From Deltaproteobacteria bacterium (GTDB taxonomy: Bacteria; Myxococcota_A; Polyangia; Polyangiales; JADJMO01): a stretch of 64,000 bases of DNA. The notes below the pieces were generated by a model, which was not told the DNA's origin, searched no databases, and saw nothing but the letters and a program-made list of their open reading frames with translations. Shown here in pieces: positions 35,874 to 42,386 of this stretch. The position numbers and the translations under genes are program-made. The stretch covers positions 1 to 64,000 of the forward strand of contig JANYDK010000082.1 of NCBI GenBank assembly GCA_025363655.1. The letters are read 5' to 3'. Each line of letters opens with the position of its first letter. The stretch's first letter is position 1.

Positions 35874-38800
35874 ATGCGCAAGCTCGTGCCGGTGATCGCC
35901 CTCCTCGCGTGTTCGAGCTCGACGAACGAGGGCTCGGAGATCCGACGATATGCCGCGCCGCTCCCGCCGGTCGTCACGGCCGTCGAGCGCATCGCCCCGA
36001 AGGGCGTCGGCCCGTCGCGGTTGCACGTCGAGGCGCTCGCCGATGGAGCGCTGATGGTGCAGCACGGCGGAGAGACGCTGCGGCTTCGTCCGGAGTTGGC
36101 GTTGCCGACGGGGTCGGTGGTGAAGGGGGCTTTGCTCGAGCGGGCGCGCGGTCCCCTCGTCGAGCTCGTCGCCGAGCGGCCCGACGGTGTGGAGGTGTCG
36201 TGGCGATTCGCCGAGCGGCCGAGCGATTCGCGCGATGCGCGGGTGACCCTCGCGCTCGAGGGAGCGAGGGTCTTTGCGCGTTCGTCCGACGGAGTGCTCG
36301 TCCGGCGCGGCGATACGTTCTTTCGCCTGAGCGAAGGGATGTGGGTCGACGCCGCCGGGCACCAGACGAAGGTCCCGATCGAGGTCGTGGACGGCGCGGT
36401 CGTCTATGCGGTGCCGCAAGACGTCGTGAAGACCTCGTCGTACCCGGCCGTGCTCGACCCGACGATCTCTGCCGAGACGGAGATCGAGGGTCCCGTCGAC
36501 GTCGTCGCTCCCGGAAGCGCCACGGCTACGCCGCGTTTCGACGGCACGAATTTCGAGGTGAACGGCGGCGTCGTATTGGCGGCGCGCGTGGGGCGCTCGC
36601 GTCGCACCCACTTCTCGACGACCGGCGCGCGCGTCGGCGGCATCGTCACCCTGCCGTCGCTCGGTGGCGCCTCCGTCCTGCTCGGGGCGACCGAGTCGCT
36701 CGTGCTGTCGACCGGCACCGATGGCCTCAGCCTCGGTTTCCGCCGCGTCGATGCGGCGTGGGCGTACCTCGATACTGCCGTCACGCCGATCGGTGCGCTC
36801 GGCTCGTCGGGTGCATTCGCCGCGGCATTCGACGGGTCTCAGTACGTCGTCGTGTGGGACGACGGCACGAGCTCGCGCCTCGACCACGTGTCGTCTTCGG
36901 GCCTGCTAACGCACGTCGCATCGCTGGGTCTCGAGCGGCTGTCGTACTCGTCGCCGAGCCTGACGTGCACGAGCGGGACGTGCCTCCTCGTCGACGGCGG
37001 GCTCGGCACCGCGCGTCGCCTCGGTTCAATCGGTGCGCTGGGGGTTCCCTTCGCGCTCTCGACGCTCGGCGAGTCGTTACGGGCCGTCGGGACGAACGGG
37101 GGTGCGTTCGAGCTCCTGTCCACCAACTACTCCACCGACTACCAGCTGCGAACGCTCTCGGCCGCGGGCGTGCTCGGTGCGCCGACGACCATCGCCGCCG
37201 CCGGGGCCAGCGCCTACGTGTCCTTCGCCAGCGGACCGAGCGGCCACCTCGTCGTCTGGGAGTCGCAGCCGCGGTTCGGCTTCCCTGTTCCCTTGAACCT
37301 CGCACGCCTCGACGGGTCGGCGGCCACCAAGTGGTCCGGCACGTTCGTCGACGACGTCGGGTCGTACTCGGAGGCGCCGGGCGTCTCGCTCGTCGGCGAC
37401 GTGGCGATGATCACCTGGCTCACCAACCAAGTGCAGAAGGCGCACGCGATGGTCTTCGACTCGAGCATCAAGCCGAGCGCGCCGCCGACGGCGATCGACG
37501 TCTGGCGAGGCTCGCCGGGTCAGTACAACTCGGCGATGGCCAGCGACGGAACGAACCACCTCGTCGCCTGGTTGGAGGAGCGCGACGGCGAGCTGCAGGT
37601 TCGCGCGCGTCGAATCGACGGCACGGGCAAGCCGCTCGAGGCGGCGTCACTCCTCCTCACGACGCTCCCTCCCAGCCCGTTCGGTCAAGGTATCGCCGAC
37701 CTCGCCGTAGGCTGGGACGGCGCGCGCTACCACGTCGCTTGGCGAAGGCCGATCACCGATTTGCGCCGCCCGCTCGAGCGCGTGCGCGTCGCCGCTGACG
37801 GCACGCTCATCGACGCAAGCCCGCTCGTTCTCGACGCGGGAGGATACACCGCGTCGGCGGCGGCGATCGCCGGTCACTCGGCGCGATCCGTCATCGCATG
37901 GTCGGACGCCGGCAACGTCTACGTGCGCCGGTTCGACGACAAAGGCGAGCCGCTCGGCGCGACGCCGACGAAGATCGCCCTCACGATCCACGCCGGAGGC
38001 GGGGGCGACCAGAACTCGCTCGACGTCGCCTGTGACGCCAAGCGATGCCTCGTGACGTTCGCCGTCGATGCCGGCGCGAGCACCGATCTCGCGGGGGCGT
38101 TCGTCGACGACGCCGGCGCGGTCTCGCCGACGATTCCGCTGGTGACGACGGCCGGCGAGCAATCGTTCCCCGCGGTTAGCTGGAGCGGCAGCGCCTACCT
38201 CGTCGCCTGGACGGAGGTCCGGCCGGCGACCAAGACCGAGCTCCGCGCGACGCGCTTCGGGCCTGACGGCAAGGCGCTCGACGCGGCACCGGTGGTCCTC
38301 GCCGACGGGATCGCCGACTTCACCGCGCCCGACGTGGTGTGGGACGGTCGCGCGTTCGTCGTCGGCGCGCGACGATCTACGTCCGACCCCGACATGCGGG
38401 AAATCGTGCTCGCTCGCGTTCGCGCCGATGGGGTCGCGGTCGCCGAGCCGCCGTGGTCGATCACCACGGCAGCGATGAACACCTACTCGACCCGTCGCGT
38501 GACCCTCTCCAGCGACGGCAAGGGTACGACGTTCGTCGCGCATGCACGCGTCGTCGACGCCGAGCCCTACGTCGGCGCTCGCCTCCGCCTCCACGCGTTC
38601 GTCGCCGCGCAGCCGAGCGGCGGCGCGTGCAAGGCCCCCACCGATTGCGACAGCGGTTTTTGCGTCGACGGTGTCTGCTGCAGCTCGCCTTGCAGCGGGC
38701 CGTGCGAGGCCTGCGACGTCGCGGGCGCGTTCGGCACGTGCACGCCGGTCGGCGGTCGACCGCACGGCGCGCGGAGTTGCACGGGCGGCGCCGGCGACGC

Positions 38801-41800
38801 GTGCACGAGCGGCGCTTGCGATGGAAAGGACGCGACGAAGTGCGCCAACTTCGCGCTCGAAATCGGCGGCGTCTGCGGCGCACCGTCTTGCACGGGCACG
38901 TCGTTCACCGGGGCGGCGACGTGCAGCGACGGGCGCGTCTGCACGACGCCGGCGGTCGTCGAGTGCGCGCCGTACCGGTGCGCGCCGGGCGGCTGCCTCA
39001 AGACGTGCGCGAACGACGGCGATTGCGTGAGCCGTGCGAGTTGCCTGACCGGGAGCTGCGTGCCGTCGACGTCCGGAGCGCGCTGCAGCGACGACAAGCT
39101 CTCGTCGATCGGCGCCGACGGCGTGGTCACCAGCTGCGCGCCGCTGCGATGCAATACCGACGGCACGTGCTTCAAGTCCTGCAGCAGCTCGGACGAGTGC
39201 GTGCCCGGCTTCATCTGCGACACCGCGACGGCCGCGTGTCTTCCTGCCGACACGAGCAGCAGCGGCAGCAGCGGCTGCGCGACGGGCCCGAACGAGTCGT
39301 CTTCTTGGGGTTCGCTCGGCGCGTGCATCGTGCTCGCCGTCGGTGCGGTGTTGCGCCGGCGCCGACGCCAGGCGTTGCGCTCTCTCTCCGCGTTGGCCGT
39401 CATCGGCCTGGTCGCACTCGTCGGCTGTCGCTCCAACGTCGCCGAGCCGGCCCCTCGACCCGCAGCGGGCACGACGACGTCCGCGCTCGTCGTCGGCGCC
39501 GAGAGCACCACGGTCGACACCGCAGACACGGTGGGTCCCGGTCTCGGTTCCCGCGTCGCCTGTGCGACGTCGGGGTGCCTCGTCGTTTCGTCGCCCTCGG
39601 TGAATCTCGACATTCCGTGGCTCGCCGGCCATCGGCTCGATGCCAGCGGCGCGTACGTTCCCGCGAGCGGGTTCGTCATCGCCAACATCGGCGACGTCGG
39701 TTATGGCGGTGCTGCCGTCGGCAGCAACGGCACCGACTACCTCGTCGTCTGGAACCAGTTCTTCGCCTCGCCATTGGCGCAGCGCGTGTCGGGCTCCGGT
39801 GCACTCGTGGGGACTCCCATTCCGCTCGTCGAGCGGTCGTCGTTCGCCACCGGGCCGACGGTGGGATGGGACGGCTCCCACTGGCTCGTCACCTGGAGCG
39901 AAGGGCGCTCCGGCAAGACCGAGGTGGTCGGAGCGCGCCTCGCGACGGACGGCTCGCTGGTCGACACCGACGGTTTCACGATCGTCGGCGGCAGTGCGGC
40001 GAAGCCGATCATGGGCCAAATCTGGCAGGGTTGCGACGCCGGCGGCTGCACCGTGCTCGCGGGTGCGGATCGCAGCACCAGCGTCGCTCGCATCGTCGAC
40101 GGCAAGGTCTCCGCGCCGGTCGAGCTCTCCTTCAAGCTTGGCTCGGCTGCGCGCGTCGGCAGTTCGATCGCGATCCTCGGTCGTGACGCCTCGGTGCCTT
40201 CGAGCCCGCCTGCGGCGATCCAAATCTCACCGACGGGGACTTTGCTGGGTCCGGTCGTGGCACTGCCCACCGGGGTCGTCGCCGGCCCGGTGGCTGGCGT
40301 CGGCTTCGATCTGCTCGTCACGGACGGCACGCAGCTCCAGCGTCTCGACTCCTCGTACGCCTTGGTCGAGAGCCTGACGTTCACTGGGCCCGTCGTCTAC
40401 GTGGCCCCGAACGCGGTCCCGTTCGCGGGCCGGATGCTGGTTCCGGCCTCGTTCACCGGTGGTCCGTTCGGGAGCGACGAGGGCCTCTACGTCGCGGACA
40501 AGTCGCCGCTTCGATGGACTCGCGTCCCCGTCGAGCACCGCGCCGCCCCACACGTGCTGCCACGCGTGGCCTCCAATGGCACGCAGAGCCTCGTCGCATT
40601 TCTGCGCCAGGGACCGACGGGCGATCAGATCGTCTTCGCCAAGAGCGGTGGCGGCGTCCTCACGCCGACGAGCGGCACGGTCATCGCGTCCGAAGGCGCC
40701 ACGGTCTACGACCTCGACGTCCGCTGGGACGGCACGAACTTCGTCGTGGCGTGGGTGACGGCCGCGCGCGTCGCTTTTGCGCGCATCGATCCGAGCGGAT
40801 CCTCGCTCGATCCCGGCGGCATTCGCCTCCTCGGTCGGGGCACCGGGAGCTCGTGGTACGGCGGAGTGCGACTCGGCCACGGGACTGACGGCGCGGTCGC
40901 CGTGCTGGTTCCCCTCAACGACTGCACCACGACCTGCACGGCCCTGCCGCCGGGGACGATCCGCCTCAAGGGCAGCGCCGCGCTCGACGCCGCGCCCCAG
41001 CCGTTCACCGTCTCCTCCTATTTCACCACCAGCCTCGACAGGGCCCCGTCCGCCCGGCGCTTCGCCGTCGGAAGCCATGCCGGTAGCTCGATCGTCGTGT
41101 GGGGCACCGACACCCTCCGCGCGATCCGCCTCGGTCCCGACGGCAAGGCCATCGGTGGCGAGGTGGCGCTGACGACGCCGTCCTTTTCCTATCCATCGCG
41201 CGCATCGATCGTCGACGACGGTGCCGGCTACACGCTCGTCTTCGGCGACTCGCGCAAGGGAAGCTTGGGTTCCGACATCTTCGCGATACACGTCGCTTAC
41301 GACCTCTCCGGTACGCCCGACGAGTGGCTGGTGTCGGCGCGCGACGCCAACCAGCTCGACGCGTCGATCGCCGTCGACGGCGGCCGCGCCGTGGTCACCT
41401 GGACCGAACGCACGCCGACGAGCGACGAACTACGCGCGTCCCTCGTCGATCTCTCGAAGAAGAAGGTCCTCGTCGACGCGGTGAAGCTCGACGGCTTCGG
41501 CAGCGGCGAGATCGTCGACGAGAACCTCGCGAGCTGGACTGCGGGCAAGGCCGAGCTCGTCTACGAGCGGGCCGATCGCGACCCGACGATTCTCGCGTCG
41601 CGAGTCAAGGCACGCACCTTCTCGTTCGACTCCCTCGGTGGCGCCACGTGCACCAAGGACGCCGACTGCGAGCTCGGTCCCTGCATCGACGGAGTCTGCT
41701 GCAACACCAAGTGCGACGGGACATGCGAAGCCTGCGACGTCCCCGGCTCGGTCGGCACGTGCAAGACCATCGCGGGCAAGCCCCACGGGGCGCGTGCGTG

Positions 41801-42386
41801 CGCCACCGGCACCACCTGCGCCGAGGCGACGTGCGACGGATTCGAGCCGAAATCGTGCGCGAAATTCGCCCACGCGTTCGAGACCAAGTGCGCCGAGCCG
41901 AAGTGCGACGGGGCCATCTTTTCCTCGCCCAGCTACTGCGATGGAAAGGGTGGCTGCAGCGCTCCGACGACGGCGTCGTGCGCGCCCTTCGCCTGCGACT
42001 CCAACGGTTGCCTGACCACCTGCACGAGCGACGCGAGCTGCGCCAAATCCTTCACGTGCAAGGACCACACGTGCGTGGCGGCGGAGAACGGCGCGGTGTG
42101 CGTGAACGACGGGCTCGGGTCGAAGGGCGTCGATGGCGCGGTGAAGGACTGCTCGCCCTATCGGTGCGACGTGAAGGGCACTTGCGCGCAGTCGTGCGAT
42201 TCGGCCGCGCAATGCGCCCCGGGGTTCGCTTGTGATCCGTCGGGGCAATGCGTCGCGGCAGCGTCCGGGAGCAGCGGCGGGTGCGTCGTCGGCAGCGTCT
42301 CGACGACGACCACCGAGACCGCAGCCTATGCCCTCGCCTTCGTCGCCGCCCTCGGTCTCGCGCGTACCCGACGGCGACGCGGTTAG
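35874..42386 (+). CDS. Giant in-frame fusion of two lipoprotein/MYXO-CTERM beta-repeat proteins
   Basis: There are 2170 residues without a stop. Residues 1-1171 start with a lipoprotein signal (VIALLAC) and contain repeats of the type WDG-x-x-[YF]-x-V-x-W. They end in a Cys-rich block (about 920-1120; GVCCSSPCSGPCEACDVAG) and a MYXO-CTERM-like tail (Gly/Ser, Cys, helix, RRRRR). Residues 1172-2170 restart with a second lipoprotein-type signal (LSALAVIGLVALVGC), similar WDG repeats, a homologous Cys-rich block (GVCCNTKCDGTCEACDVPG) and a second tail (LGLARTRRRRG). An in-frame TTG at 39387 would start the second unit. A tail and a signal in the middle of one chain conflict topologically. A lost stop codon, a sequencing error or a processed precursor are all possible. 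The WDG repeats suggest a surface propeller; function unknown. Confidence 0.85.
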   Translation: MRKLVPVIALLACSSSTNEGSEIRRYAAPLPPVVTAVERIAPKGVGPSRLHVEALADGALMVQHGGETLRLRPELALPTGSVVKGALLERARGPLVELVAERPDGVEVSWRFAERPSDSRDARVTLALEGARVFARSSDGVLVRRGDTFFRLSEGMWVDAAGHQTKVPIEVVDGAVVYAVPQDVVKTSSYPAVLDPTISAETEIEGPVDVVAPGSATATPRFDGTNFEVNGGVVLAARVGRSRRTHFSTTGARVGGIVTLPSLGGASVLLGATESLVLSTGTDGLSLGFRRVDAAWAYLDTAVTPIGALGSSGAFAAAFDGSQYVVVWDDGTSSRLDHVSSSGLLTHVASLGLERLSYSSPSLTCTSGTCLLVDGGLGTARRLGSIGALGVPFALSTLGESLRAVGTNGGAFELLSTNYSTDYQLRTLSAAGVLGAPTTIAAAGASAYVSFASGPSGHLVVWESQPRFGFPVPLNLARLDGSAATKWSGTFVDDVGSYSEAPGVSLVGDVAMITWLTNQVQKAHAMVFDSSIKPSAPPTAIDVWRGSPGQYNSAMASDGTNHLVAWLEERDGELQVRARRIDGTGKPLEAASLLLTTLPPSPFGQGIADLAVGWDGARYHVAWRRPITDLRRPLERVRVAADGTLIDASPLVLDAGGYTASAAAIAGHSARSVIAWSDAGNVYVRRFDDKGEPLGATPTKIALTIHAGGGGDQNSLDVACDAKRCLVTFAVDAGASTDLAGAFVDDAGAVSPTIPLVTTAGEQSFPAVSWSGSAYLVAWTEVRPATKTELRATRFGPDGKALDAAPVVLADGIADFTAPDVVWDGRAFVVGARRSTSDPDMREIVLARVRADGVAVAEPPWSITTAAMNTYSTRRVTLSSDGKGTTFVAHARVVDAEPYVGARLRLHAFVAAQPSGGACKAPTDCDSGFCVDGVCCSSPCSGPCEACDVAGAFGTCTPVGGRPHGARSCTGGAGDACTSGACDGKDATKCANFALEIGGVCGAPSCTGTSFTGAATCSDGRVCTTPAVVECAPYRCAPGGCLKTCANDGDCVSRASCLTGSCVPSTSGARCSDDKLSSIGADGVVTSCAPLRCNTDGTCFKSCSSSDECVPGFICDTATAACLPADTSSSGSSGCATGPNESSSWGSLGACIVLAVGAVLRRRRRQALRSLSALAVIGLVALVGCRSNVAEPAPRPAAGTTTSALVVGAESTTVDTADTVGPGLGSRVACATSGCLVVSSPSVNLDIPWLAGHRLDASGAYVPASGFVIANIGDVGYGGAAVGSNGTDYLVVWNQFFASPLAQRVSGSGALVGTPIPLVERSSFATGPTVGWDGSHWLVTWSEGRSGKTEVVGARLATDGSLVDTDGFTIVGGSAAKPIMGQIWQGCDAGGCTVLAGADRSTSVARIVDGKVSAPVELSFKLGSAARVGSSIAILGRDASVPSSPPAAIQISPTGTLLGPVVALPTGVVAGPVAGVGFDLLVTDGTQLQRLDSSYALVESLTFTGPVVYVAPNAVPFAGRMLVPASFTGGPFGSDEGLYVADKSPLRWTRVPVEHRAAPHVLPRVASNGTQSLVAFLRQGPTGDQIVFAKSGGGVLTPTSGTVIASEGATVYDLDVRWDGTNFVVAWVTAARVAFARIDPSGSSLDPGGIRLLGRGTGSSWYGGVRLGHGTDGAVAVLVPLNDCTTTCTALPPGTIRLKGSAALDAAPQPFTVSSYFTTSLDRAPSARRFAVGSHAGSSIVVWGTDTLRAIRLGPDGKAIGGEVALTTPSFSYPSRASIVDDGAGYTLVFGDSRKGSLGSDIFAIHVAYDLSGTPDEWLVSARDANQLDASIAVDGGRAVVTWTERTPTSDELRASLVDLSKKKVLVDAVKLDGFGSGEIVDENLASWTAGKAELVYERADRDPTILASRVKARTFSFDSLGGATCTKDADCELGPCIDGVCCNTKCDGTCEACDVPGSVGTCKTIAGKPHGARACATGTTCAEATCDGFEPKSCAKFAHAFETKCAEPKCDGAIFSSPSYCDGKGGCSAPTTASCAPFACDSNGCLTTCTSDASCAKSFTCKDHTCVAAENGAVCVNDGLGSKGVDGAVKDCSPYRCDVKGTCAQSCDSAAQCAPGFACDPSGQCVAAASGSSGGCVVGSVSTTTTETAAYALAFVAALGLARTRRRRG

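Follow-up and report, generated by a model that had tools for sequence, protein, structure and literature searches.

Two putative surface lipoproteins joined in one open reading frame of a Polyangiales bacterium by a MYXO-CTERM tag and an internal lipoprotein signal

Proteins with a MYXO-CTERM tag are cut by a myxosortase near the Cys of the tag and are thereby anchored (PMC11980579). Such tags have been found inside a protein "in rare cases" by Guo, Haft and Wall 2025 (PMC11980579). The MXAN_5598 protein of Myxococcus xanthus was considered a possible gene fusion, and its N-terminal part was proposed to be processed and surface-anchored (PMC11980579). In Haloferax volcanii, the fused ORF HVO_0405 carries an archaeosortase site near its middle and is cut in vivo (PMC7157517). 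In this work we focused on a single open reading frame (ORF) of a Polyangiales bacterium, located on the forward strand at positions 35874-42386 of the first 64,000 nucleotides of contig JANYDK010000082.1 (assembly GCA_025363655.1), a stretch hereafter called the window. The norm for bacterial surface proteins is one gene, one signal peptide and one anchor, from which this chain appears to depart.

The ORF comprises 2170 codons and contains no internal stop, the junction between its two halves included. Its parts are the following:

35874-42386, + strand: whole fused ORF, composed of a signal peptide with lipobox, a putatively propeller-like body, a Cys-rich block and a MYXO-CTERM tag, then the same layout again
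35874-35912, + strand: first signal peptide, MRKLVPVIALLAC, with lipobox Cys13; its start and Cys are kept in both paralogs of the same genome
38628-39239, + strand: first Cys-rich block, residues about 919-1122, homologous to the second
39276-39368, + strand: internal MYXO-CTERM tag, with Cys1135, a helix (1145-1160) and an Arg cluster (1161-1165)
39354-39428, + strand: internal type II signal peptide, RRRRRQALRSLSALAVIGLVALVGC, matching PROSITE PS51257; the Arg cluster doubles as its n-region
39375-39377, + strand: in-frame TTG, candidate start for a separate second protein, without Shine-Dalgarno-like sequence
41649-42254, + strand: second Cys-rich block, residues 1926-2127, homologous to the first
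42282-42383, + strand: terminal MYXO-CTERM tag, from Cys2137 to the end

The internal tag (residues 1135-1165) starts at Cys1135, ends in WGSLGACIVLAVGAVL-RRRRR and is followed in frame by ALRSLSALAVIGLVALVGC; the Cys1185 of the internal lipobox (LVGC) is encoded at 39426-39428. The two halves are homologous, with 27% identity over 766 residues (E value 3e-55). The initial annotation had described two proteins fused without a stop codon, a MYXO-CTERM-like tail made of a helix and five Arg, a lipoprotein signal directly after it and a second Cys-rich block homologous to the first, and all four were found. Each half carries a lipobox at its N-terminal end (35874-35912 and 39354-39428) and a MYXO-CTERM tag (39276-39368 and 42282-42383), so that each mature half could have lipid anchors at both ends.

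The signals were compared with family models using cut-offs of 15.85 bits for TIGR03382 (MYXO-CTERM), 20 for TIGR03901, 195 for NF040594 (MrtC) and 37 for NF058595. The isolated internal tail of the window protein scored 17.8 bits with TIGR03382, above the cut-off, and the internal tails of the two paralogs, on contigs C25 and C127, passed TIGR03901 with 21.7 and 24.6 bits. With the latter model the terminal tags scored 12.0 bits in the window protein and 26.1 and 20.3 bits in the paralogs. No match to TIGR03382 or TIGR03901 was reported at E values up to 1 for the whole 2170-residue protein. MYXO-CTERM proteins are expected to have the tag at the extreme C terminus; this is where the second tag ends the chain, while the internal tag is followed by 1005 residues. 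They are also expected to have an N-terminal signal peptide, and the window protein has one in addition to the internal one ending at Cys1185. The internal signal combines the PS51257 lipobox with a basic n-region; the strict PS51257 pattern was matched by 63 of the 76 parsed junctions.

The window's open junction is not significant by itself. It is poor in A (9 of 153 bases), and the chance of 50 codons without a stop is 0.59, so a missing stop in this copy alone is unsurprising. We therefore discarded it as independent evidence, and the significance of the fusion rests on paralogs and orthologs. The G+C content at third codon positions (GC3) is 0.77-0.92 throughout the ORF and 0.84 at the junction, so that no frame change is concealed. 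Neither a promoter nor a terminator was found when the junction was scanned for them.

The window's genome (G000; 9.0 Mb in 150 contigs) encodes two paralogs with the same unbroken architecture on other contigs, C25 (L009, 2142 residues) and C127 (L010, 2096 residues). The three proteins share 43-46% identity. Cys1135, Arg1163-1165 and the lipobox residues Gly1184, Cys1185 and Arg1186 are invariant among them; both junction helices have diverged, with a small insertion in one protein. When 89 Cys-rich domains were placed in a tree, the first halves clustered together (window and C25, 100/97), as did the second halves (100/99), and the fusion is therefore older than the triplication. A fourth fusion in the same genome, with Kelch repeats (C71, L085), is matched in genera g2 and g3 by L043, L045, L100 and L069, and further Cys-rich fusions were found at L049, L097, L102, L105 and L120. 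About a dozen are distributed over the window's genome and four genomes of other genera in the family, these other genera contributing about ten fusions with this junction. A tag in the Cys-rich set is either terminal, with the stop 4-63 residues further on, or internal, with 500 or more residues still to come, and every internal tag directly precedes a signal-peptide helix with a lipobox. Strongly supported branches of the tree require at least three state changes. These would fit three separate fusions but also one gain and two losses, and several independent origins are regarded as likely among these putative surface proteins. Two members show assembly weaknesses outside this argument: L043 is apparently frame-shifted near the end of its 1476-residue ORF, in the second half, and a stretch of N lies directly behind the lipobox of L045.

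The same junction occurs in an unrelated family. The best TIGR03901 match of the genome is internal as well (35.7 bits) and lies in an unrelated protein of 1464 residues on contig C58 (L131, L161); in the MYXO-CTERM model test the internal tag of L161 scored 29.4 bits. The location of this gene is:

L161 6101-10492, - strand: C58-type protein, on contig C58 of the window's genome

This protein is conserved phylum-wide and belongs to no Pfam family; its second half lacks a terminal MYXO-CTERM tag. A search with 550 residues spanning its junction identified relatives within the order in 122 of 184 genomes, which represent 63 of 84 genera, and within the phylum in 151 of 379 genomes. Reading the DNA of loci gave 84 distinct ORFs that encode both halves in the same frame; by pattern, the tag is present in 83 of them and the lipobox run as well in 82, the two exceptions being one pattern miss and one degenerate tail. 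Fused ORFs are present in Sorangium cellulosum So ce26 and So ceGT47, whose genomes are complete, and in the genome of Polyangium fumosum DSM 14668; metagenome assembly is therefore not their cause. Across 14 sequences from the whole phylum, the Cys of the tag and a single Arg never vary, and the Gly-Cys of the lipobox is nearly invariant. From composition, 73 stops would be expected in 87 C58-type junctions (5982 codons), a figure that serves as a guide and not as a probability because the sequences are related. The distant ortholog L335 has a degenerate tag, in which the Cys and helix are present and the Arg cluster is not adjacent to the helix; this may reflect a lost cut.

The spacing between the first Arg and the Cys of the lipobox corresponds to the size of a signal peptide: it is 14-25 residues for the Cys-rich fusions and 19-48 for the C58-type family. 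The median piece from Cys to Cys measures 43 and 58 residues, respectively.

Unfused relatives point to the same boundary. Two split orthologs of the C58-type protein were found, G017 and L318, and in both the break falls precisely between the tag and the signal peptide; in these orthologs only, the signal peptide of the second half is N-terminal, while in the window ORF it is internal. In G017, a genome 99% complete, the first ORF ends with WRRRSSRRDARTKAVK and a stop, and the second starts within a TGATG overlap as MNARTCLVGALALTLAGVANPGC. In L318 a GTGA overlap follows an ORF of 888 residues and starts a lipoprotein signal ending in VFQGC; this contig has low coverage, and the split may be real or a one-base indel error. 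L267 and L311 are stand-alone paralogs of the first half, in which the tag is followed by a stop. Tandem Cys-rich relatives overlap by ATGA, GTGA or TGATG (L090, L078, L076) or are separated by a 60-nt gap (L086). In view of these split, stand-alone and tandem forms, each half seems to be one and the same unit in either state, joined or separate. At L090, L108, L078 and L076 a tag-protein gene precedes a lipoprotein gene with a 1- or 4-base overlap, and translation of these pairs is likely coupled. Such pairs are possible precursors of the in-frame fusion, and the fused state looks like the last stage of a progression in which tandem genes first overlap and then merge in frame. The initial annotation had suggested a look for separate tandem genes in relatives; overlapping and split pairs do exist, but the paralogs and the 84 C58-type ORFs described above are fused.

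The window's genome also encodes enzymes required for the predicted processing. Its MrtC gene (G000:C32) scored 246 bits with NF040594, and within the order 162 of 179 genomes have an MrtC that exceeds the cut-off. LspA is likewise encoded and over its cut-off.

Starting from what is observed, namely the fusion, its two signals, their conservation, the C58-type orthologs split at the same point and the protease genes, we propose, with a probability of roughly 0.7, that the ORF encodes one precursor of two tandem surface lipoproteins, which is cut by myxosortase and by the Lgt/LspA route. The predicted topology, cleavages, lipidation and purpose would be as follows. The first half would cross the inner membrane until the MYXO-CTERM helix, oriented out-to-in, halts translocation. 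The Arg cluster would stay on the cytoplasmic side and also act as the n-region of the internal lipoprotein signal, whose helix, oriented in-to-out, would restart export and place the second half outside. MrtC would cut at Cys1135, releasing the first half with a lipid anchor at its new C terminus. Lgt would lipidate Cys1185 and LspA would cleave before it, making the second half an ordinary lipoprotein, and the hairpin of about 50 residues between the two cuts would be thrown away. The terminal MYXO-CTERM tag of the second half would be handled like that of the first. The outcome would be two surface proteins in a 1:1 ratio from one ORF. The conflict in topology that had been seen between tail and signal thus dissolves into an out-in-out hairpin with an Arg cluster cytoplasmic for both, and of the three origins originally offered (a lost stop codon, a sequencing error, a precursor split by sorting proteases) the last is the one supported, with cleavage as its predicted part.

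Several points weigh against this proposal. The internal tag of the window protein scored 12.5 bits with TIGR03901, below the cut-off of 20, and passes TIGR03382 only. The best Lgt-like gene of the genome reached 106 bits, just below the curated cut-off of 118.9. No report of myxosortase cleavage at an internal tag, or of bacterial Lgt/LspA action at an internal signal, was found in the literature searched. Finally, several junctions, that of the window included, contain possible internal starts, and an extra, separate initiation is possible there.

A first alternative is that the chain is not cut at all and that the hairpin stays in the inner membrane, joining two periplasmic domains in one stable chain. 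No sequence feature forces cleavage, and two helices with a basic loop are a valid membrane anchor. We nevertheless regard this as unlikely: the protease signals (tag Cys, Arg, lipobox Gly-Cys) are kept over distance while the helices drift, stand-alone paralogs carry the tag at their end, split orthologs exist untethered, and the archaeal analogue HVO_0405 is cut.

A single cut also appears improbable. Either LspA/Lgt would act at Cys1185 only, the first half keeping the hairpin, or myxosortase alone would cut, the second half being held by its uncleaved signal helix. That the two enzymes target different helices speaks for this reading; both recognition Cys, however, are conserved jointly in the three paralogs and in the 14 phylum-wide C58-type orthologs.

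We consider it very unlikely that these are in-frame overlapping genes, the second half being made mostly from an internal start (GTG 39348, TTG 39351 or TTG 39375) and read-through being incidental. The window junction contains five in-frame candidates (GTG 39330, GTG 39348, TTG 39351, TTG 39375 and TTG 39393); the TTG that had been placed at 39387 is in fact a TCC codon, the in-frame TTGs nearby being those at 39375 and 39393. Initiation at TTG 39375 would yield a good lipoprotein start, MRSLSALAVIGLVALVGC, tandem relatives occur as ATGA- or GTGA-overlapping pairs, and the L049 junction has GGAGG upstream of ATG-ATG. The separate second start that had been suggested therefore retains a candidate codon, but no Shine-Dalgarno-like purine run was found at any of the window's candidates, and ten comparable junctions (L009, L045, L097 and seven C58-type orthologs) have no usable ATG, GTG or TTG, so that the second protein must there derive from the fused chain. 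Moreover, with no stop at the junction each ribosome starting at the first ATG must produce the fusion. Internal starts could add an extra second product in some genes.

That the stop was lost by mutation or by a sequencing or assembly error, in an artefact or decaying gene, might be suspected from a 150-contig assembly and a junction often open by chance, but can practically be dismissed, because the junction is shared by the two paralogs, by ORFs of other genera and, for the C58-type family, by closed isolate genomes, because GC3 shows no break, and because the domain tree places the fusion before the three paralogs arose.

If the cuts are made as predicted, the precursor would be a bacterial polyprotein that two different membrane proteases process, and Lgt/LspA would be shown to accept an internal signal peptide. 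As a reporter it would reveal myxosortase activity in vivo by a clean size shift, as HVO_0405 did for archaeosortase. By a small measure, we also favour a broader reading, in which Myxococcota possess a general polyprotein device: a two-helix cassette of myxosortase tag and lipoprotein signal with a shared Arg cluster would turn one ORF into two separately lipidated surface proteins at a fixed 1:1 ratio. In one family the device would date back to early times in the phylum, and in Cys-rich surface proteins it would have several origins, probably three or more. For annotation, internal MYXO-CTERM tags are not rare, and ORFs containing them may encode two mature proteins.

Both families are labelled putative surface proteins from their signals. 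The window protein matched no Pfam family, and a PDB sequence search with both families gave no convincing relative. The body of the first half is long and strand-rich. The AlphaFold model of the second half, built with three sequences, had a mean predicted local distance difference test score of 57.7 and consisted mostly of strands, and Foldseek retrieved generic beta-propeller proteins only, with low TM-scores, and therefore no function is claimed; the model hints weakly at a strand-rich, propeller-like second half. The C58-type family merits its own name and a study of its function.

A literature search for internal lipoboxes, lipo-invert domains and bacterial polyprotein lipoproteins gave nothing relevant, and in the literature searched, with subscription papers mostly outside it, there was no description of the junction of tag and lipobox, its recurrence, its phylum-wide conservation or its split orthologs. 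The name of the model NF058595 invert_tail ("lipo-invert putative C-terminal anchoring domain") points to a related idea; it is described as a C-terminal anchor and not as a linker of two large proteins. The junctions of the window ORF (21.0 bits) and L161 (19.8 bits) stayed below its cut-off of 37, none of 28 genomes passed it, and membership was rejected.

Among the closest described systems is the sorting of Myxococcota surface proteins by MYXO-CTERM and myxosortase (MrtX, MrtC; TIGR03901, TIGR03382, NF040594), with which the window protein shares the tripartite tag of Cys, helix and Arg cluster, and MrtC is present. Unlike the usual MYXO-CTERM tag, the one described here is internal and is followed in frame by a lipoprotein signal and an entire second protein. 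The overlapping tandem genes (G017, L318; L090, L076, L078) have the same order, a tag protein and then a lipoprotein, but a stop and a start lie between them and two chains are made. HVO_0405 is likewise a fused ORF with a mid-chain sorting site; it differs in being archaeal, in its use of the archaeosortase ArtA instead of a CPBP protease, in being a strain-specific fusion and in having no described lipobox after the site (PMC7157517). MXAN_5598 also has an internal MYXO-CTERM tag within one ORF, but the C-terminal part, instead of being a lipoprotein, forms an outer-membrane beta-barrel and has OmpA domains. Whereas MXAN_5598 was described as a rare case, the arrangement reported here is recurrent and, in one family, phylum-wide.

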